In this document: piece by piece, positions 9,488 to 42,714 of the stretch
Layout of the letters: the number at the start of each line of letters is the position of its first letter
Position numbering within the stretch: the stretch's first letter is position 1
Origin: Saprospiraceae bacterium
GTDB lineage: Bacteria > Bacteroidota > Bacteroidia > Chitinophagales > Saprospiraceae
Direction of reading: 5' to 3'
Length of the DNA stretch: 42,714 nucleotides
NCBI GenBank assembly: GCA_022448945.1
Contig: JAKVCV010000013.1
Location: 1 to 42,714, forward strand
Program-made: the position numbers and the translations under genes
Notes under the pieces: model-generated
Databases searched by the model: none
What the model was told of the DNA's origin: nothing
The model's input: the letters and a program-made list of their open reading frames with translations, nothing else

Positions 9488-10588
9488 ATGAAAATTTTAC
9501 AGAGTTTATTCTTATTTTTTTTGATAAGTTATTGTACATCCAGTCAGGCACAAGACGTACATTATACGATGTTTGACATGGCTCCATTAGAAATGAATCC
9601 TTCACAAACTGGTTTTTTTGCAGGAACTTTCCGTGTTGGAGGTATTTACAGGACACAATGGGCGGGAATGTCTATTGTCCAATCTCAACCACCACTATCT
9701 ACAGGGTCTACTAATTTTTCAGGTTTCCAGACTCCTTCAGCTTTTATTGATGTTCCTTTTGGTATTCCCCCAAAGGACAAGAACAAAACAATGAAAAGTT
9801 GGGCAGGTGTAGGTGTATCATTTTATTTGGATAAAGTTGCAAATGTATCAAACGTAGCAGCAAGTTTGTCATTAGCCTATCATTTAGGATTAGGTTCTGA
9901 AGGAAGAACTGTTGTTTCCTTTGGTCTGCAAGGTGGAATTTTGCAACATAGTATAAAAGGAGATTTCACCTTCGAACAGGATCTGACGGGTTTGGGAGCA
10001 GGAGATCCTTTATACACATCTGGAGAAGCTTCGAAAACAATGCCCGATTTTTCTGGTGGTGTGTCGGTAAGTCACCGGGCTAAAAAATTTGGATTTGAAG
10101 GTGGTATATCACTTAATCATTTTACAAACCCTAATTACAGTTTGAACAATGAAGATTCAAGATTGCCAATGACAATTATTGCGAATCTAATTGGTACTGT
10201 TACCTTAACAAAAAAATTGTTTCTTAAGCCATTATTTTTCTTCCAAAACATGTTAAATACAACGGGTCAAGGAGAAGGGCTAAGCGCTTACGATTTTAAT
10301 GCACAGGTTTTATTAGGTGTTCATTTTAACGATGAAGAAGATCTTACGTTATTTGTTGGTGGAGGATACCGCGCAAGTGGTGATGCTATTATCCGAGTTG
10401 GTTTAGATATCAAAGGACTTAAGTTTGGCTTTGCTTATGATATTAACACACAAGCTCAAGGACTTAGTTATAAAGTACCAACATTCAATAATAATACAGG
10501 TATGGCTTTCGAAGTTGCGCTTTCTTATGTAGCTAAGATATATAAAGTTCCTATTATTAAGGATGTTTTATTCTGCCCACGATTCTAA
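9488..10588 (+). CDS. porP: PorP/SprF family type IX secretion system membrane protein
   Basis: This complete PorP/SprF-like protein has 366 residues. Residues 1-21 are a signal peptide (SLFLFFLISYCTSSQA before QDVHYTMFD). The mature part has the family start (DMAPLEMNPSQTGFFAGTFRVGGIYRTQW) and alternating amphipathic strands consistent with an outer-membrane beta-barrel. Motifs include GLQGGILQHSI, ANLIGTVTLTKK and a late YDINTQAQGLSYK. PorP belongs to the outer-membrane part of the type IX system; paralogs each help particular type B CTD clients. The next gene is an OmpA/PorE-like protein in the same direction, 101 bases on, matching the common porP-porE pairing. Family certain; whether this is the core PorP or a client-specific paralog is open. 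Confidence 0.88.
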   Translation: MKILQSLFLFFLISYCTSSQAQDVHYTMFDMAPLEMNPSQTGFFAGTFRVGGIYRTQWAGMSIVQSQPPLSTGSTNFSGFQTPSAFIDVPFGIPPKDKNKTMKSWAGVGVSFYLDKVANVSNVAASLSLAYHLGLGSEGRTVVSFGLQGGILQHSIKGDFTFEQDLTGLGAGDPLYTSGEASKTMPDFSGGVSVSHRAKKFGFEGGISLNHFTNPNYSLNNEDSRLPMTIIANLIGTVTLTKKLFLKPLFFFQNMLNTTGQGEGLSAYDFNAQVLLGVHFNDEEDLTLFVGGGYRASGDAIIRVGLDIKGLKFGFAYDINTQAQGLSYKVPTFNNNTGMAFEVALSYVAKIYKVPIIKDVLFCPRF

Positions 10589-10600
10589 ATACCCTCTTAC

Positions 10601-10638
10601 TAAGAATAGAAAATTTTATTTTAAATTTTCTATTCTTA
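10601..10638 (+). terminator. Strong AT-rich hairpin between porP and the porE-like gene
   Basis: A perfect 16-bp stem is formed by 10601-10616 (TAAGAATAGAAAATTT) and 10623-10638, with the six-base loop TATTTT. No clean T-run follows, so it may be a partial terminator, attenuator or mRNA-stabilising hairpin that sets different levels of the two proteins. Confidence 0.5.
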
Positions 10639-10689
10639 ATTTAACATACTTAAGTAATCCAAAAATTTAAATTTAAACTTTTTCTCATA

Positions 10690-12984
10690 ATGAAACTCAA
10701 TAATTTATTAATATTAGTTGTAGCATTTATTTTTGTTACTGAACAAGTATTTGCCCAACCTGTAGGTAATAGACCTACCGCTGAGATGAAACATACAATT
10801 GGAGATCAACAAGCTGATAAAAAAGATGCTTATACTGCCCTTGAATGGTTTATGTCCGCCTATGAACATGATAATAAAGATGCTGATGCTGTTAGTAAAA
10901 TAGCAAATACATATGAGGCTTTGAGAGATTATAAAAGTGCAGCGGACTGGTGGCAGAAATTAGTCGATCTAGACAAAGACCATCATTATCCGCTTAGTCG
11001 TTATCAACATGCCCATGCCATGAAAATGACAGGTGATTATGATAATTGTATTACTGAATTTAATGCATTTCTCGCTGAATATCCTGATGATGCTCCAAGA
11101 GCTGATTATTATAGAAAAATGTCTCAAATACAGATTGATGGTGCCAATTATGCTAAACTTAATCCTGATCCAAGAGAAGAATTATTAATAGAGAATGTTG
11201 GACCCAATGTTAATTCGCCATCTACAGAAGGTGGTGCTTTCCCTATAGGCCGTGAAGAAATTTTATATACATCCCTTAGAACCGATACAATTATCATTAC
11301 AGATGAGGATGCAGATCACGAACACGCAAAAATTTATACTGCTAAGCATTCAGATGGTGAATGGCAGCCAGCAGAAGAATTTCATGCAGAAATTATTCAA
11401 GTAGAAGGATCACACATTGTAGAACCGACTTTTAATGAAGATCATTCTAAATTTTATTTCGTAAGAGCTCAACTCGTTGGAAACCATCTTGAAAATAGTC
11501 ATATTTTTGTGTCTACATATATAGATGGCACTTTAGGTGAACCAACAATGTTAGATTTCAATTCTGATGATTACTCTTGTCAGGATCCTGCTTTGGCAGT
11601 TTGGGATGGTAAACATTACCTTTTGTTTTCATCTAACATGGAAGGTGGAAAAGGTGGTATGGATATATGGTATGCTGAATTGAATGAAGATGGTTCTACC
11701 AAACAACCTTTGAACTTAGAAGAAATAAATACTATAGGTGATGACCTAACCCCTTTTTATGATGAAAGAGATGGGCATCTTTATTTCAGTTCTGATGGGC
11801 ATCCTGGTTTTGGAGGATGGGATATATTCAGATCTACTCGTTCTCCTGACGGAACAATGGGTGAAGTGGTTAATCTTGGAGCAGGGTTTAATACCTATGT
11901 AGATGATTTTCATTTTATCATGAATAAGGTTGGCAATGATGATTGCTATGGCTATATTTTATCGAATCGTCCAGGTACTATTTCAATGAAAACTGAAACA
12001 TGCTGTGATGATATTTTTTCTATTTTGATGCCTGAACGTTGCGATATTATACTTAATGTTGACGTTAATGATGTTGAAACCGGTCAACCTATGATAGGTG
12101 CTACTGTTCAATTAATAGATAAAGCTACCGGAGAAGTTGTTGATGAACAAACAAATACTGAAGGTAATGATTATACTTTTATTCTTGAAATGGGTAAAAC
12201 ATATGATGTTTTAGCTAAAAAAGAAGGTCACGAAGATGGAACTACTCCTATTGATGCGACTAAAGAAGCCTTAACAGCTGCTGGATTGGATTTAACTAAA
12301 CCTATGGAATTTGGGGATAAAGTAAGTATAAAAGAACTTGGTTTAGTAGTTCAGGCATATAATAAAAGAACTAATGAAAAATTAGATGGTGTTACAGTAA
12401 CCATATATGATGCTTCTTCTGGCGATGAGATTAAGAAATTAACTATGGCAAAAGGTAACGAATTTACTTTTGCAATTCCTCGTTCAAAGGATTATAAAGT
12501 ATTTGCTAATCGTGAAGGTTATTTGGCTGATACTAGGGTAGTGGCAAAAAAAGACCTGGGAATGATACAGAAAATGTATTTAATTCCACCACCAGTCTTT
12601 TTTAATGTCTATTTTGACTTTAATAAATCAAATATTCGTCAGGGTGCTGCTGATACTCTTGATATGGTATTGCAAACATTGAAAGATAATCCTGAGATGG
12701 TCGTAGAAGTTCTTGGACATACAGATGCAAAAGGTAGTGATGAATATAATATGACTCTATCTAGCGAACGATCTGTTTCAGCTATTGCATATTTAAAAGA
12801 AAACGGTATTGATGGAAATCGATTAATTTCAAAAGGTGTTGGTGAGGCTGAACCTGTTGCTGAAAATGAAAAAACTGATGGTTCTGATAATCCTGAAGGA
12901 CGTCAACTTAATCGTCGTGTGGAGTTTAAAATAGTAAAAGGTAATTTGGGTATTAATGACTCAGAAACTGAAAAAAAAAGTTAA
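10690..12984 (+). CDS. PorE-like OmpA family protein (TPR, PD40 propeller, two CRD-type domains, OmpA)
   Basis: This 764-residue exported protein has a signal peptide at residues 1-22 (LLILVVAFIFVTEQVFA). TPR-like helices cover about 30-160 and a PD40/WD40-like propeller about 170-450 (YLLFSSNMEGGKGGMDIWY, LYFSSDGHPGFGGWDIF). Two carboxypeptidase-regulatory-like beta domains follow at about 455-635. An OmpA peptidoglycan-binding domain covers about 636-752, with FDFNKSNI, GHTDAKGSDEYN and the LNRRVEF arginine. This domain order is that of PorE, a peptidoglycan-bound periplasmic/outer-membrane part of the type IX complex. The frame ends at TAA directly after a run of nine A. In the -1 frame the sequence stays open into the DUF1573 ORF, so the natural protein may be longer. 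Confidence 0.88.
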   Translation: MKLNNLLILVVAFIFVTEQVFAQPVGNRPTAEMKHTIGDQQADKKDAYTALEWFMSAYEHDNKDADAVSKIANTYEALRDYKSAADWWQKLVDLDKDHHYPLSRYQHAHAMKMTGDYDNCITEFNAFLAEYPDDAPRADYYRKMSQIQIDGANYAKLNPDPREELLIENVGPNVNSPSTEGGAFPIGREEILYTSLRTDTIIITDEDADHEHAKIYTAKHSDGEWQPAEEFHAEIIQVEGSHIVEPTFNEDHSKFYFVRAQLVGNHLENSHIFVSTYIDGTLGEPTMLDFNSDDYSCQDPALAVWDGKHYLLFSSNMEGGKGGMDIWYAELNEDGSTKQPLNLEEINTIGDDLTPFYDERDGHLYFSSDGHPGFGGWDIFRSTRSPDGTMGEVVNLGAGFNTYVDDFHFIMNKVGNDDCYGYILSNRPGTISMKTETCCDDIFSILMPERCDIILNVDVNDVETGQPMIGATVQLIDKATGEVVDEQTNTEGNDYTFILEMGKTYDVLAKKEGHEDGTTPIDATKEALTAAGLDLTKPMEFGDKVSIKELGLVVQAYNKRTNEKLDGVTVTIYDASSGDEIKKLTMAKGNEFTFAIPRSKDYKVFANREGYLADTRVVAKKDLGMIQKMYLIPPPVFFNVYFDFNKSNIRQGAADTLDMVLQTLKDNPEMVVEVLGHTDAKGSDEYNMTLSSERSVSAIAYLKENGIDGNRLISKGVGEAEPVAENEKTDGSDNPEGRQLNRRVEFKIVKGNLGINDSETEKKS
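12971..12980 (+). promoter_or_regulatory. A9-G homopolymer, possible frameshift or slippage site
   Basis: Nine A followed by G sit two codons before the TAA at 12982-12984 of the OmpA gene. A -1 shift here reads through 26 open codons without a start codon and enters the DUF1573 ORF at 13059. The run is long enough for RNA-polymerase slippage or -1 ribosomal slippage (A-AAA-AAA), and is also a typical place for a sequencing error. Confidence 0.5.
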
Positions 12985-35364: not shown

Positions 35365-36720
35365 ATGCGTTTTTTGCATAAGTATCTTTTAAGATTTTTT
35401 TTCTGGATTAGTGGAATGTGGTCTCATTATTCATCAAAGGTAATATATTCTCCTTTTGCACCACAACAAGTAGATCCATTGAAAGTTAGGGATATGCTGA
35501 TACATGCTCAAACAAATGTTAGTTATTATCAGAATAAAATACCTACTGTTCCTGCAGACTCTAAACATTTGTTTCCATTCTTAAAAAATCTTGATTTTAC
35601 GGTTTCTAAAGTAGATCTTTTAAGTGATGATAAATTATTTATTGATCAAAGGAATCATAAATATTCCAATCGAATAGGGATCAAAGCCGGATTTATACAC
35701 AATCTATTAAGTGGTTTAAGTAAAAATTGTTTAGTGCCTATTAATTCAAGTGGTTCTTCTGGTAGAGCTTTGAAATTTTATAAGACCAGAAAAGATCTTC
35801 AAATTGCATCTATTGAAATTCTACAGGCTGCTAGGTATTTGGGATGGGAGGAAGGTGAATCAATTGTTATTAGTTTTCAAGAAGGTATGTATGCACAAAC
35901 TCGGTTTTTTCACAGGCTATTTGGTTGGTTTGGAATGCCATTGTTTTTGTATAAGCATATTAATAAAAATTCTGCGCAGAAGTTTGTTAATCATATCAAT
36001 AAAAGTAATGCTACAGTTGTTATTGCTTTTGCTTCTCAGTTGACGGAGTTTGCATTGAATTGTAAAAAATTTAATATAAAAGTAAAAACTCCATTAAAAT
36101 TTATTCTTAGTGTAGGGGAGATGCTGTTCAAAGAACATAGACTACTTATAGAAGAGGTTTTTGATGTAAAAGTTTACGATTTTTATGGATCTAGTGAAAT
36201 GGGAATGATCGCGATAGAATGTAAACACCAAAAAGGAATGCATATTTTTGAAAATGAAGTATTCCTTGAGACAGATCAAAATAATAATATCCTTGCTACA
36301 TCTTTTAATTCTCAGTATATGCCTTTTATCAAGTATAAAATAGGTGATACAGGTGTTATTCGTGAACAAGAGTGTACATGTGGTATAAAAGGTAAAATGC
36401 TAGTAGAATTAAAAGGACGTGTTGATGAATATTTATTGACTGAAGATAGGGAACGTGTTTATGCCTCTTATTTTAGACAACTATTGTTACATTGTAATGA
36501 TTTTTTTAATGGTGTTATTATTAGAGGTCAGTTTATTCAAAAGAAGGATCTATCGATATCTGTAGCCTTGCAGATAACCCATGATAAAATTCCAAAAGAT
36601 AAAATAACCCAAATTATAAAGGAACGTATTTTTAAAGATTTTAACCTGGATGTAGAGGTTAACTATCGTTTACAATTATTACCTGATAAAGGAAAGTTCA
36701 AAATGTTGATCAGGGAATAA
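35365..36720 (+). CDS. PaaK/CapK-like adenylate-forming ligase
   Basis: This 451-residue protein is related to phenylacetate-CoA ligase. The phosphate-binding loop SSGSSGRALKFYKT is near residue 128, the A5-like YGSSEMGMIAIEC near 273, then MPFIKYKIGDTGVI near 320 with CTCGIKGK and LKGRVDEYLLTEDRERVYASYF near 350. The PaaK-type C-terminal subdomain (NVEVNYR-like LDVEVNYRLQLLPDKGKFKMLI) closes it. Members activate aryl or acyl acids, or act in polysaccharide and natural-product pathways (CapK). The gene converges on the SDR and assembly-line genes, ending 40 bases from the SDR stop. A supply role for that pathway is possible but is only an inference. Confidence 0.78.
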   Translation: MRFLHKYLLRFFFWISGMWSHYSSKVIYSPFAPQQVDPLKVRDMLIHAQTNVSYYQNKIPTVPADSKHLFPFLKNLDFTVSKVDLLSDDKLFIDQRNHKYSNRIGIKAGFIHNLLSGLSKNCLVPINSSGSSGRALKFYKTRKDLQIASIEILQAARYLGWEEGESIVISFQEGMYAQTRFFHRLFGWFGMPLFLYKHINKNSAQKFVNHINKSNATVVIAFASQLTEFALNCKKFNIKVKTPLKFILSVGEMLFKEHRLLIEEVFDVKVYDFYGSSEMGMIAIECKHQKGMHIFENEVFLETDQNNNILATSFNSQYMPFIKYKIGDTGVIREQECTCGIKGKMLVELKGRVDEYLLTEDRERVYASYFRQLLLHCNDFFNGVIIRGQFIQKKDLSISVALQITHDKIPKDKITQIIKERIFKDFNLDVEVNYRLQLLPDKGKFKMLIRE

Positions 36721-36760: not shown

Positions 36761-37471
36761 TCAATAAGGATGTTTTTGCCCGTTTGTATGTAATAGTTGA
36801 CCACTATTTTTCATTGAAATTTCTTCGATCAGTTCATATAAATGATCAGCAGACTCTTCAGTGCTTAAGGGTGCATCTTCACCCCCCATAGCGGTGCGTA
36901 CATGCCCAGGATTTACGGAACAAACACAGATACCATCTGATCTTAAATCTTCTGCTAATAATAGTGACCACATGTTTAATAAAGCTTTAGATCCTTTGTA
37001 ACCATAATTCCCTCCTTTATTTACTAGTGACAGAGCTCCTTTTCTAGAAGATAACATTAATACTTTTGGATTGTGAGCGTTCTTTAAAACAGATGTCAGG
37101 CTCTGAGTTAATAAAACAGGAACAATAGAATTAATTCTTATCATTTTTTCTAAGCCAGAAAATTCTAATTTTCCAAATTCCAGGTTCTTTTGTTTCTGAG
37201 TTAAATCTATATGTGTTGCACTTAATGCAGCATTATGAATCAAAAGATCAAGATGAGTAATTTGATTAATTATTTTATTTATAAAACCAGGAATTTCTTC
37301 AACTTGGTTTAGATCTAGATATAATGGTTGGGCCCCACAATTTTTAATTTCTTCTCCTTCATCTCTACATGTAGCCCAAACCTCATATTTTTCATTTACA
37401 AGTTTCTTCGTTAATGCAAGACCAATACCTCTTGAGCCACCAGTTATAAGTGCAATTTTTTTCTTTTCCAT
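36761..37471 (-). CDS. Short-chain dehydrogenase/reductase (SDR), last gene of the assembly-line operon
   Basis: This 236-residue Rossmann enzyme has the cofactor motif ALITGGSRGIGLALTKKLV (residues 7-25), LLIHNAALSA near 80, the catalytic Y-x3-K in YGYKGSKALLNMWS near 158, and SVNPGHVRTAMGG near 190. It is a classical single-domain NAD(P)-dependent SDR. It starts 5 bases after the stop of the NRPS-like gene, so the two are almost certainly one transcript. It may reduce the aldehyde or a ketone of the assembly-line product. Substrate unknown. Confidence 0.85.
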   Translation of the reverse strand: MEKKKIALITGGSRGIGLALTKKLVNEKYEVWATCRDEGEEIKNCGAQPLYLDLNQVEEIPGFINKIINQITHLDLLIHNAALSATHIDLTQKQKNLEFGKLEFSGLEKMIRINSIVPVLLTQSLTSVLKNAHNPKVLMLSSRKGALSLVNKGGNYGYKGSKALLNMWSLLLAEDLRSDGICVCSVNPGHVRTAMGGEDAPLSTEESADHLYELIEEISMKNSGQLLHTNGQKHPY

Positions 37472-37476
37472 TAATA

Positions 37477-40400
37477 TTACTTTATTAAACTAGGTTTTTT
37501 TCTATTCTTGTATATTTTCTTTATTGAATCTATTATTATATTGGGAACAATCCATGGGCCAAGATGTGGAGGTGGTGCTTTCCAATTACTATCGAGAATA
37601 CTATCTAAGATTTGATTTGCTCGTGTCGGAAGCACAGGCCCTTTTGTTGCACCCAACTCTGGATTTATAGAAAGCAGTAAAGATTCTGCCTGACAACCAG
37701 GTATAAATTTGTCTCCATATTCATTGCGTAATTGAGATGCTTGAGGAAAAGGTGACCATCTTTTTAAAGGCCCAAGATCAACTGTTCCTGCACCTAGGCA
37801 CAGTATATCTTTTTTATTCTTCATACGCTTTAATGCTTTCTGTTCATCAAATACCTGAGGGAAACTATCATCCATAATAATAACACCTGGTCTAAGTAAC
37901 TCAACATCTATAGATATTCCTCCACTACTCGCACCAATGATGAGGTCACAATCATCTAAAGACTTAGAATCTTTACCCAATTTGGGGTCATTAATTTCAA
38001 TAGATTTTGGAGAACCAAGTCTTCCTTTTAAAAGTTCAATGCTTGCTTGTCCAATTGAACCATAACCAAGTACACCTACTTTTAAGTCAGACCAATTTAA
38101 ATCAAGGCTGTCTATAATTGATTTAGTGTTTAGATAAATTAATGCTACTGTAACAGAATGCCCTGTACTTAATAATTTTTCTGGTAATATATTGGATGTA
38201 CATAAGCCTGTCAGTGCAGGTAGCATCCCTGCCAATGTAACTACAGGCGCAGAGCTTAACACTGCAGCTTTTTGAATATGATTTACTAGCTGTGCTTTAT
38301 TGCCCAAATTATCTGCATTTACAGGAATGCCAACGATGTCCATTTCACCATATTCACAGTAAATTTTTTCCAAAAGTGTCGGTCCTGTTCCCTTAGGAAG
38401 AGGGAAGCCACTTGGAGCATATACAATGACACAAGATTTTGGCATACAATAACTTAAAAGTTCTTTTTTGAAAATTGGCCCTAATTCATCAATTATTGAA
38501 GTACCATGAAGATTGATTCTTAGGCCATCGTGTATCATAGCCCCAATTAGTAATTCTGTATCTGTTGAAGAAGTATCATAGGCAAAACAGCCATTTTCCC
38601 ATTTGATATTTAGATTGCTTTTTGGATTTGAAATTATAGATGGGTCCATCCATGATATAAAATATCTAGATAGGTTCGTGTAAGAGTCAGAACCAGCTGC
38701 TCTTGCAATTGAAGCCAAAGAAGCATAAGCATGGTTTGAAGCATTTGTGAAACTTTCAATGATATTTTTTAGAGTTGCTTTTTCTTGAATACGAATGGGT
38801 AAAGCCCTTGCAAATGGTCCAACAATTCCAGATAGGTTTTGGAGGTCATGTTCACGACCTGATAAAGCTGTAGAAATTATTGTATCTGTTTTACCAGTAG
38901 TTTTTTGTAATGCTATGAATAAAGCACTTAATGCAAGTAAGAAAGGAGAGCATTTTTCTTTCTTTGCTCTTTTTTGGAAGCTACTCCATTGATCTGGTGT
39001 TAGATCAAAATGAGATTCTCTAACTGTATGTTTTTCTACAGGGTCTAATGCAGGAAGTTTCGACAGATATTTACTCCACCATGTATCATCTTCCTGATGT
39101 TCAGGTATTGAAGAAAAAGGCTTTGGTAATAATAACTGGGGTTGTTTGTTTAAAATGAATGAATCATGTGCTTCGAGTAATTCAGACATTAGTATCCAAG
39201 AACTCCAGGCATCAGCAATAATATGGTGGGCAGAAAAAAACAAGGTGCTATCATTATTAGAAAGTTGTATTATACGTAAGCGAAATAAAGGTAACTGCTC
39301 CATTCTGTAAGCGATGCTTTTTTCAGTTTCCCAAGCTAGAGAAATGATTTGTTCCTGTTTCGATAGAGGAACTAACCTTAGATCTTCATACTGCACTTCT
39401 GGTATATAGTTTGTATGGATTTTGCGTATTGGTCCATTTTTGCAATTTTCAAAAGTACTATTTAATGATTCGTGACGTTTTACAACATATACGAATGCTT
39501 TTCTAAATGCTTCAATATTCACTTCCCCTTTTAATGGGATTCTTGCTGCCCATATTGGAGGACTTTCTGGGTTGCGATTATGTGATGTCCAAAAACCTCG
39601 CTGTACCATGCTGAGCTTTTCTGTTGATTGTGTATAATGCGTTTTGTCGGAGGATTCAAGAACCATTGCTAGGTTCTTTAATTTTTGATGATTATAAATA
39701 GCCATCGGAGCGAGTTTAAACCCTTTTTCCTGTAGAAAAGAAAGGACCTGTAAAGCTCTGATAGAATCACCACCTAATTCAAAGAAATTATTCTCGGGGC
39801 TAGGTAGCGATGGTAGTTTTAGTACTTGTTTCCATATTCCTGCCAGAATTTCTATATTATTTTTTGAATCTAAGTTGAGAACCTCTTCTGATTTTGTTGC
39901 AATAAATTGTTTGTGCAGGGCTTTTCTATCAGCTTTTCCTGCTGTATTTCTTGGTATTTTATCTACAATTTTCCATTGATGTGGAATCATATAATCAGGT
40001 AGCTTTTGTTTCATAAAAAAGCGTACTGCTAATAAATCCAGTTTAGTTTTTGCCTTGACAAATGCAATAAGTTGTTCTTCTTCATACAAGATCATTGCTT
40101 CTTCTATCAATGGATGATTTAAGAGTTGATGTTCAATCTCATTTAGTTCAACTCGATTTCCATATATTTGGATTTGTGTATCTTTTCGTCCTAAATAGAT
40201 AAATGATCCATCTGCTTGCTGTTTGCCAATATCACCCATTAAGTAGATCTTTCCTAGTTCAGGATGCTGAACGTATGCTTTATTAGTCACTTCAGGCATT
40301 TTCCAGTATCCATTTGATATGGAGCCAGATACAGCAAGGTCTCCGATGCCGTCTTTTATATTAACAAGATGCATATTTACTCCCGCACGAGACCAACCTA

Positions 40401-42714
40401 TTGGTACATGTATTTCAGATTCTTCAGGAAGCCTTACTAATTCATAAAAGCTTGAGTTTACAATTGTTTCAGTCGAACCATAAACATTTGCAAACCTAGT
40501 TGTTGAGGGTGCATTAGCTAACCATTTTCTGGCTAATTCTGCACTTACTGCTTCTCCACCAATGAGCACCCAGTTAAGGTATTTCAAAGGGTTGGTTCCA
40601 TTTTTTTGTCTAACGTTATCTAGTATTATATTCAAAAGGCTAGGTACAGTATTTAGGTTAGTAATTTTTTTGTGCTCTAATAGTTTTATCAATGCTTCAG
40701 GATTCCGTAGTGTTTCAGGATTAATAGGGTAGGTTCGACCTCCATTTTGTAAAGGGGAAAATAGTTGCCTAAGGCTTCCACCAAAACTTAAAGAAGAGGT
40801 CCATGCAAATCGTTCATTTTCATCAACTTGAAAGGCTCTTTTTACCCAGCCTAGCCAATTTGAAAGTGCAAGGTGATCTACCATTACACCTTTAGGCATT
40901 CCTGTAGAACCAGAGGTATACATTATATAAGCAAGTTTACCTTTTTTGATCGGACCAATTTCTGCTTCATCTTCACCTATAGTCAGTATTTTGAGTCTGC
41001 TGATATTATTAGCACGTCCAGATAGTTCTGAAGTAGTTATTAGCATGTCTGGTCCTGCTGATTTTAATATCTGTTTAATGCGATCATCCGGCCATCTTGG
41101 ATCTAATGGTAACCAAGCTGCTCCTGTACGTATGATACTTAATATACCAATCGCAGAAGATTCAGATGGGTTGCCAAGAATCGCAATTAATTTTCCATTT
41201 AATTTTTTTGCAAGAGCAGCAGAGCGTCTGGAAAGAGTACCATAATTAATTTCCCCAACAGCTATTCTTTTGGGATGCTTTTGACACCTTAATAAAATTT
41301 GTTCATGAATCTGTAATGGTACAGATTTAGTAGTTTTAAGGGAATTAATAAGATTATTTTTAACATTCTTTAGAAACCTTTTAACCTGAATTGGGTCAAG
41401 ATGTGATACTGCATAATTGAAAGTTAGATGTAATTCACCTTTAAAGATCCATGCGAGAAGTGTTAGTCGTGTAAAACCTCCACCAGCAGCACCTTTAAGA
41501 TCCTCGATTTCAATATTGCCAAATTTATCCAATCCAGGTAACATTGGGAAAGAAAATGAAAATGGCGTTATTCCTGCAGGGCCACAAGCACGAAAATCTC
41601 CTGTTTTTGCTAGAGCAAGAGAAGAAATAGATCCATTGGCACGGGCTTCATTCATCGAATCAGAACAGATTTTTGAAATATCTATTAGATTCATATTCTG
41701 GTCTAAATTGCTTTGAATAGGTAAAGAATCGGCAAATGAACCTACTATTTTTGTTATGTCAGTTATCCGAAGTTCTCGACGTCCCTGAGCGACACGTACA
41801 GTCACTTGTTGTTGACCACTTTCGTCAAATAGAAATTTTTTATAAGAAGCTAAGACTAAAGCTACGAGTGTAGTATTGTGTTTCTGGCTAATTTTTTGGA
41901 GTAGTTTTGTTTGTTTTTTACTAATGATTAGCCTTTCTTGACCACAGCCACCAGATGATGGAGTATCAACCGAAGCTTTCCATTTGAGATGTATTGGATG
42001 AACACCATTTTTAAATTTTTTCTTCCAGTACGTTAAATCCGTATCCTTAAGTTGAATACTATAATCAACGGCGTCTGACCAACCGCTTTTAAGAACTGGT
42101 AAATCTGCAAGATTTTCTCCACAAGATATAGCGTAGATATGTAGTAGCTCTTCAGCTAATATTTTTATGCTCCACGCATCTATGATTGCATGATGACCCA
42201 CTAGCAAAATTCTGGTATCACTAAAATAGAGTTTGAATAATGGACCTTTTTCTAAATCTAATATATTATTGTAACAAGCACTTTCTTGATCAACATGATA
42301 ACGCTCAAAACCTACTTCACTTTTACCTAAAATCAAACGCCATTGATTTTCATAACGATTGATAGTTGAAGTAATAATTGGATGTCTTAAAACTAACTCA
42401 GCAAGCGCATTTTTAAGTTTTAATGTATTGATTTTCTTATTGCTATTCTGAATTCTACAACTTAAAGAAACATTGCACGGCATATCAGGAGAGAAATAAT
42501 GTTGGACTACAAAAGTTTCTTGGGCAGGTAATAAAGGAAGTCCAGGTAGAATTTGTTCCGTTGATATGTTTTCTCTTGATCTTTCAATTCCTCCTTTCAA
42601 AGCAAATATTAAAGAATTTATTGTATCATATTCATATAAAAGAGATGTTGGTAAACCCTTGTTTAGAAATGTTTCCAGCTCTTTTAGTAAATCGAGTGCT
42701 ATTAGTGAATCAAG
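37477..42714 (-). CDS. Biosynthetic assembly-line protein (carrier-C-A-PCP-C-AAR-like reductase), N-terminus cut off by window edge
   Basis: The frame is open from base 42714 to the stop at 37477: 1745 residues, partial at the N-terminus. Numbering from the edge, residues 1-38 are the second half of a PKS-style carrier domain (LDSLIALDLLKELE, pantetheinyl Ser3; LPTSLLYEYDTI). C1 covers about 55-465 (HHAIIDAW near 173). The A domain, about 470-935, has YTSGSTGMPKG near 600, YGSTET near 745 and NTAGKADRK near 930. The carrier motif LGGDSIRAL has Ser near 984. C2 covers about 1020-1420 (HHIIADAW near 1163). The last 320 residues match cyanobacterial acyl-ACP reductase: STGHSVTVALIY, GVLGYGSIGQ near 1550, and PGCQAESLLL with the presumed catalytic Cys near 1674. 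No carrier follows C2. The A domain has Gly in place of the Asp that binds an alpha-amino group. Product unknown. Confidence 0.88.
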   Translation of the reverse strand, partial: LDSLIALDLLKELETFLNKGLPTSLLYEYDTINSLIFALKGGIERSRENISTEQILPGLPLLPAQETFVVQHYFSPDMPCNVSLSCRIQNSNKKINTLKLKNALAELVLRHPIITSTINRYENQWRLILGKSEVGFERYHVDQESACYNNILDLEKGPLFKLYFSDTRILLVGHHAIIDAWSIKILAEELLHIYAISCGENLADLPVLKSGWSDAVDYSIQLKDTDLTYWKKKFKNGVHPIHLKWKASVDTPSSGGCGQERLIISKKQTKLLQKISQKHNTTLVALVLASYKKFLFDESGQQQVTVRVAQGRRELRITDITKIVGSFADSLPIQSNLDQNMNLIDISKICSDSMNEARANGSISSLALAKTGDFRACGPAGITPFSFSFPMLPGLDKFGNIEIEDLKGAAGGGFTRLTLLAWIFKGELHLTFNYAVSHLDPIQVKRFLKNVKNNLINSLKTTKSVPLQIHEQILLRCQKHPKRIAVGEINYGTLSRRSAALAKKLNGKLIAILGNPSESSAIGILSIIRTGAAWLPLDPRWPDDRIKQILKSAGPDMLITTSELSGRANNISRLKILTIGEDEAEIGPIKKGKLAYIMYTSGSTGMPKGVMVDHLALSNWLGWVKRAFQVDENERFAWTSSLSFGGSLRQLFSPLQNGGRTYPINPETLRNPEALIKLLEHKKITNLNTVPSLLNIILDNVRQKNGTNPLKYLNWVLIGGEAVSAELARKWLANAPSTTRFANVYGSTETIVNSSFYELVRLPEESEIHVPIGWSRAGVNMHLVNIKDGIGDLAVSGSISNGYWKMPEVTNKAYVQHPELGKIYLMGDIGKQQADGSFIYLGRKDTQIQIYGNRVELNEIEHQLLNHPLIEEAMILYEEEQLIAFVKAKTKLDLLAVRFFMKQKLPDYMIPHQWKIVDKIPRNTAGKADRKALHKQFIATKSEEVLNLDSKNNIEILAGIWKQVLKLPSLPSPENNFFELGGDSIRALQVLSFLQEKGFKLAPMAIYNHQKLKNLAMVLESSDKTHYTQSTEKLSMVQRGFWTSHNRNPESPPIWAARIPLKGEVNIEAFRKAFVYVVKRHESLNSTFENCKNGPIRKIHTNYIPEVQYEDLRLVPLSKQEQIISLAWETEKSIAYRMEQLPLFRLRIIQLSNNDSTLFFSAHHIIADAWSSWILMSELLEAHDSFILNKQPQLLLPKPFSSIPEHQEDDTWWSKYLSKLPALDPVEKHTVRESHFDLTPDQWSSFQKRAKKEKCSPFLLALSALFIALQKTTGKTDTIISTALSGREHDLQNLSGIVGPFARALPIRIQEKATLKNIIESFTNASNHAYASLASIARAAGSDSYTNLSRYFISWMDPSIISNPKSNLNIKWENGCFAYDTSSTDTELLIGAMIHDGLRINLHGTSIIDELGPIFKKELLSYCMPKSCVIVYAPSGFPLPKGTGPTLLEKIYCEYGEMDIVGIPVNADNLGNKAQLVNHIQKAAVLSSAPVVTLAGMLPALTGLCTSNILPEKLLSTGHSVTVALIYLNTKSIIDSLDLNWSDLKVGVLGYGSIGQASIELLKGRLGSPKSIEINDPKLGKDSKSLDDCDLIIGASSGGISIDVELLRPGVIIMDDSFPQVFDEQKALKRMKNKKDILCLGAGTVDLGPLKRWSPFPQASQLRNEYGDKFIPGCQAESLLLSINPELGATKGPVLPTRANQILDSILDSNWKAPPPHLGPWIVPNIIIDSIKKIYKNRKKPSLIK

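Follow-up and report, generated by a model that had tools for sequence, protein, structure and literature searches.

The stretch of DNA analysed here (the window) comprises 42,714 nucleotides of contig JAKVCV010000013.1 from a Saprospiraceae bacterium (assembly GCA_022448945.1), and it encodes the last part of a giant synthetase whose C-terminal region is very probably a cysteine-acyl release domain of the superfamily that unites the cyanobacterial acyl-ACP reductase (AAR), the PigE reductase and the TAD domain of the carmabin pathway. In alignments and in a structural model this release domain, called TR below, presents the AAR fold, a catalytic-type Cys, a dinucleotide-binding loop and a C-terminal place after an adenylation domain, a peptidyl carrier protein and a condensation domain (A-PCP-C). 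The domain type itself is already known from deposited structures. The preliminary description of this DNA had recognized the release domain, and it overlooked both the condensation domain fused to TR (C2) and the occurrence of the complete assembly line in different phyla.

Family placement of the release domain

The best match of TR by sequence, by profile and by structure is TAD (PDB 9e4s, 9e4u, 9e4x, 9e50, 9e56), and the two have in common the Cys, the TGH and DDS-P motifs, and kinship of sequence and fold, at an identity of 23-24%. TAD comes from a non-ribosomal peptide synthetase (NRPS) protein deposited in 2025, so that a terminal domain of this type was already on record, and a domain following the last PCP of HcaD and VatR is treated in the literature as one that releases an amide (PMC10949194). 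TAD-like domains stand directly after a carrier in a protein of genome G058 (locus L006) and in HcaD and VatR (PMC10949194), the two sources for this feature of the type, whereas in the window PCP and TR are separated by a complete C domain.

The N-terminal thioester reductase of PigE gives a profile match to TR of 1.2e-16 with the Cys aligned, and like TR it is fused to other biosynthetic domains. In PigE, which has SGN in place of TGH, and in TamH, with its C-terminal reductase, the partners are aminotransferases, and a family scan of the whole synthetase protein found no aminotransferase family. TamH is likened to TR from its published description alone, which defines it as a transaminase-thioester reductase fusion by an AAR-like domain (PMC9594044). 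The PigE model NF053554 scores the TR protein at 29.6 bits against a cut-off of 850, which places it outside that family.

Cyanobacterial AAR (TIGR04058; 6jzq, 6jzu, 6jzy, 6jzz) is free-standing, has TGN rather than TGH and is 17% identical to TR. In a search of the window's own genome TIGR04058 did not report TR at E <= 0.01, its one match (E 2.8e-4, 20.8 bits; cut-off 449.7 bits) lying in a frame of 346 aa on a different contig, and strict membership of the AAR family, as first proposed, is rejected on this ground. The structural comparison that had been suggested does place the tail in the AAR superfamily, with TAD and not AAR as the best match.

A GxGxxG loop alone is generic and the tail has a weak match to 2-hydroxyacid dehydrogenases (E 0.16), which would be compatible with a terminal reductase of the short-chain dehydrogenase/reductase (SDR) type or with an unrelated dehydrogenase recruited by chance. 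The tail alone gave no match to the SDR thioester-reductase models of Pfam and NCBIfam, in agreement with the preliminary description, and the alignments with TAD and PigE together with the TAD match make such an origin scarcely credible. Through the TR family, the alkane biosynthesis of cyanobacteria (AAR) is connected with the making of prodiginines (PigE) and with the carmabin TAD. Searches of the literature with the TAD PDB codes gave no relevant title among the matches listed.

Active site and conservation

A search with the single window protein gave no relative among 131 pattern matches, and relatives were therefore collected by a scan with profile A1 using the DDS-P pattern, the best 80 of 116 relatives being kept. 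Conservation was counted over 83 sequences, the window and 82 relatives, with L045 (broken frame), L009 (no TR match by BLAST) and the duplicate copies L001, L002, L007 and L008 of the window and G058 sequences excluded. In L045 the TR reading frame is split (L045:9692-11464, Streptomyces sp. NBRC 110035) by a frameshift or a sequencing error. The elements of TR are located as follows, all on the reverse strand:

37480..38450, TR release domain (TAD/AAR superfamily), its start taken from the end of the C-domain fold match, to about +/-15 bp
37693..37695, invariant Cys codon (position 279 in alignments A2/A3)
38050..38067, GYGSIG dinucleotide-binding loop, its three Gly and the Ser invariant
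38158..38160, codon of the invariant His of (S/T)(S/T)GH

The catalytic-type Cys and the GxGSxG loop, both expected from the preliminary description, occur in 83/83 sequences, as do the GH of (S/T)(S/T)GH, a C-terminal His and DDS, whose conservation is partly a selection effect of the search pattern. The loop lines up with that of AAR. The Cys falls in the column of PigE Cys296, which has been equated with AAR Cys294 (PMC8341465); the direct alignment with AAR ends before the Cys, and the equivalence to Cys294 goes via PigE. It also shares the column of TAD Cys2238, by a chain-index count that sets alignment against structure numbering. According to their titles, the TAD entries include crystals with NAD, with NADH and with Cys2238 bound to dephospho-CoA through a disulfide, and this disulfide supports placing the TR Cys where the phosphopantetheine arm arrives. 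The invariant His is replaced by Asn in AAR and PigE.

Domain order of the synthetase

The synthetase open reading frame (ORF) encodes 3528 aa (contig C5 37477-48063) and is cut by the window end. Its order by Pfam is a fatty acyl-AMP ligase (FAAL; an AMP-binding domain with a DIP2-like subdomain), acyl carrier protein (ACP), ketosynthase (KS), acyltransferase (AT), ketoreductase (KR), ACP, C, A, PCP and C, with a tail of about 325 residues that Pfam assigns to no family. As judged by eye, KS, AT, the two C domains and PCP seem to retain intact active-site motifs, and the synthetase probably makes a small fatty molecule. The domains that precede TR in the window, again on the reverse strand, are:

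38433..39642, C2, terminal condensation domain, complete fold with an HHxxxD motif (AHHIIADA)
39646..39861, PCP carrier (GGDS site), which presumably acts as donor to both C2 and TR
39934..41286, adenylation domain, pocket GGRNLGVVN
41329..42537, C1, first condensation-type domain (GHHAIIDA), boundaries approximate
42592..42714, second ACP, truncated at the window end and with an approximate boundary; KR, AT, KS, ACP and FAAL lie further upstream in the contig

One unreadable codon (X) stands directly before the LDSL site of the second ACP, in contig C5 just past window position 42714 (L002 near 12715).

The terminal condensation domain and its pairing with TR

The search for other C-AAR fusions that the preliminary description had proposed proved fruitful. 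Among 85 TR ORFs (81 from the 80 loci, L045 counting twice, plus L002, L004, L005 and L006), TR is immediately preceded by a C-domain match in 74. An HHxxxD string occurs within 500 residues upstream in 71 of these 74; it was not found in L011 or in the short-contig loci L022 and L033. The 11 ORFs without C comprise four free-standing proteins (L005, L071, L082, L084), the A-PCP-TR protein L006, the two pieces of L045, the contig-edge cases L047, L060 and L062, and L075, for which there is no explanation. Of the 74, L042 alone shows a carrier motif separating C from TR, in a Gly-rich stretch where it looks like chance.

An AF2 model of PCP-C2-TR from the 28-row alignment A4 (pLDDT 85.1, pTM 0.71) has, by structure search, a full C fold over residues ~74-477 with TR after it, and the second His and the Asp of the C2 motif are invariant in all 28 rows. 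With this fold and its HHxxxD motif, C2 appears as an NRPS condensation domain. Its phmmer matches are the condensation domains of McyB, BacC, TycC and others (31 sequences, E <= 0.001), and within the PvdL chains, which hold an E and a C domain, it matches residues 594-866, taken as the C domain.

The position of C2 would also fit an epimerization (E) domain in the order A-PCP-E-release, and Foldseek with the three-domain model ranks the PCP-E didomains 9bfg, 5isw and 5isx at 15 to 27, with E-values near those of the C domains above them, a result that does not decide the matter. This identity is nevertheless very improbable, being disfavoured by the phmmer search, whose 31 sequences do not include the E-domain entries 2xhg and 9bfg, both of which C1 finds, and by a second structural comparison with no PCP-E entry among its best 50 rows. 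Unlike C2, C1 has PDB matches that include the epimerization-domain chains 2xhg and 9bfg and the part of PvdL taken as its E domain.

A tree of 17 C2 and 16 C1 domains, drawn from 17 selected loci, puts all the C2 domains on one side with 100/100 support, and its C1 and C2 halves repeat much of each other's branching, from which it follows that C2 and TR probably travelled together. Since C2 in addition keeps its active-site motif, it probably forms one release unit with TR, acting on the same chain or on the released aldehyde. A TR tree of 33 rows chosen from the 83 unites the five free-standing or carrier-adjacent domains in one group (100/100) and pairs the window with L010, from a proteobacterial metagenome-assembled genome (MAG; 100/100), near L012; branches are long and the deeper joins are unsure.

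Distribution and adenylation pockets

Most actinomycete loci, compared by BLAST with the window domains, have the order KS-AT-KR-ACP-C-A-PCP-C-TR, with a FAAL where the locus reaches it. Domains left without a match in some loci include KR in L004, L023 and L026 and AT in L010, L023 and L051, and L011 and L012 start at KS. In the window's own phylum, profile A1 matches 2 of 395 genomes at E <= 1e-5, namely the window's own and, weakly, G440 (95 residues, E 6.2e-6), where BLAST finds no TR match. The 100 nearer genomes, own included, hold two with a match to the window TR at E <= 0.001, itself and G058.

The adenylation pocket, at positions set from the core motifs, reads DARS(H/Q)GL(I/V)N in 65 of 73 rows and GGRNLG(L/V)VN in three (window, L010 and L012), five rows being incomplete; Arg occupies position 239 in 68/68 complete rows and would suggest a polar or acidic substrate. 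The C-TR pair and these nearly constant pockets point to a single conserved metabolite, apparently uncharacterised so far, that many Streptomyces would share with members of Micromonospora, Actinoplanes, Herbidospora and other genera. No paper on a C-TR ending appeared among the matches listed, with preprints and subscription journals covered in part, so that a paper on TAD or C-TR may exist; the spread of this ending and the near-constant pockets were likewise not found in print among the matches listed. The Streptomyces scabiei gene SCAB_43961, reported in a gene cluster described as unknown (PMC8914351), is by its position presumably the gene in L086.

Aldehyde or amide release

Release domains decide the product of an assembly line. 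In the proposed mechanism, a FAAL-primed, once-extended and keto-reduced acyl chain would be coupled to whatever unit the single A domain loads, pass from the phosphopantetheine of PCP to the TR Cys and be released as an aldehyde by hydride from NAD(P)H, after which the adjoining SDR may reduce it further. Precedents are AAR, where a thioester at Cys294 forms before hydride transfer and the product is an aldehyde (PMC7089970), and PigE, which turns a thioester into an aldehyde and then transaminates it (PMC8341465). A like reaction has been ascribed to TamH (PMC9594044). The aldehyde is given an even chance; it is favoured because of the intact dinucleotide loop, the SDR gene downstream of the synthetase and the overlap of an SDR gene with the synthetase end in the Polaribacter relative L012.

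Several observations weigh against this. The pathway of the closest relative, TAD, yields a product with a terminal amide, and the family has TGH like TAD, not the TGN or SGN of AAR and PigE. Simple reduction does not account for the C domain that sits, catalytic motif included, between PCP and TR. The window TR, like that of L010, has Gln just after DDSxP, where 81/83 sequences and TAD have His, and it lacks most of an N-terminal segment present in the other A1 rows and in the TAD constructs (399 and 425 aa). The SDR proteins of the window and of L012 differ in their best family matches, and an SDR neighbour is not general in actinomycete loci.

Part of this evidence would suit amide release, in which TR, like TAD, would offload a primary amide, either through the Cys and attack by ammonia or through a redox-neutral NADH/NAD+ shuttle by way of an aldehyde/hemiaminal. 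The hectoramide protein HcaD carries after its last PCP a 434-residue domain, 83.5% identical to that of vatiamide VatR, which is believed to offload by terminal amidation, and carmabin A is put among the possibly related amide products (PMC10949194). The low identity between TR and TAD speaks against this reading, the function of TAD was itself deduced from the product of its pathway, the mechanism of amidation is called unstudied in the same paper (PMC10949194), and the HcaD/VatR domain is a presumed homologue of TAD. Moreover, the nicotinamide loop is fully conserved and plain ammonolysis would not need one. Amide release is accordingly held as a tentative alternative, with perhaps one chance in a few, and the split between TGH and TGN/SGN makes the choice between aldehyde and amide testable.

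The aldehyde reading can be refined if C2 and TR act in turn, TR making the aldehyde and C2 condensing it with a nucleophile in a reaction of Pictet-Spengler, aldol or Knoevenagel type to give a ring product. Condensation domains of the SfmC type catalyse Pictet-Spengler chemistry. The frequent direct fusion of C2 to TR, its conserved motif and the single clade of the 17/17 C2 domains agree with such a sequence of steps, as does BurF of malleicyprol biosynthesis, a hybrid of polyketide synthase and NRPS with a C-T-Red ending in which, like C2-TR, a C domain and a reductase make up an unusual release unit, the C domain making an ester and reductive release leading to a ring closure proposed to be of Knoevenagel type (PMC12304814). 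Unlike the window, BurF has a T domain between C and Red and an SDR-type reductase (GxxGxxG, YxxxK) (PMC12304814). As C2 resembles ordinary amide-forming C domains, action in turn is rather unlikely. Equally speculative is a two-domain release device of single origin in several phyla, by which one module, needing no second carrier, would yield a product that is condensed or cyclised. In it the Cys of TR would act as second acyl site or aldehyde source, and C2 would link that acyl or aldehyde with a second nucleophile, for instance the chain carried by the next PCP. If true, the C2-TR device would represent an as yet undescribed termination chemistry of NRPSs, and one conserved lipo-amino metabolite would be encoded in this way by many actinomycetes.

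Neighbouring genes

Neighbours were surveyed with gene calls from a simple script, limited to proteins of <1000 aa; the commonest neighbour family reaches 10 loci, all of closely related Streptomyces. The genes mentioned here are:

36761..37471, reverse strand, gene of the SDR oxidoreductase, 5 bp past the stop codon of the synthetase and in the same orientation
L005:6461-7627, L071:8326-9555, L082:8354-9523 and L084:8473-9624, luciferase-like genes
L063:11019-12398 and relatives, luciferase-like genes of the Streptomyces type

The SDR gene and the synthetase are probably co-transcribed. The Polaribacter MAG L012 has a compact three-gene cluster of a phosphopantetheinyl transferase gene (478-1176), the synthetase and the SDR (10040-10828).

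A gene for a luciferase-like FMN monooxygenase lies directly before the free-standing TR gene in 4/4 proteobacterial loci, and a related gene converges on the synthetase end in 10 closely related Streptomyces loci (the L078 match being partial); two genes were assigned by Pfam PF00296 and the others by BLAST. Luciferases act on aldehydes, and these neighbours may therefore hint at the product of TR.

In the window, a gene for a PaaK/CapK-like AMP-dependent ligase (35365-36720, forward strand) converges on the SDR gene, with an NF045666 match of 97.9 bits, below the cut-off of 300. On the other side, 334 bp upstream of the synthetase and on the same strand, lies what is apparently one gene for a TonB-dependent receptor (L002:18398-19999 and L003:3-884; contig 48398 to ~50884), possibly connected with the import of the product or a metal complex.
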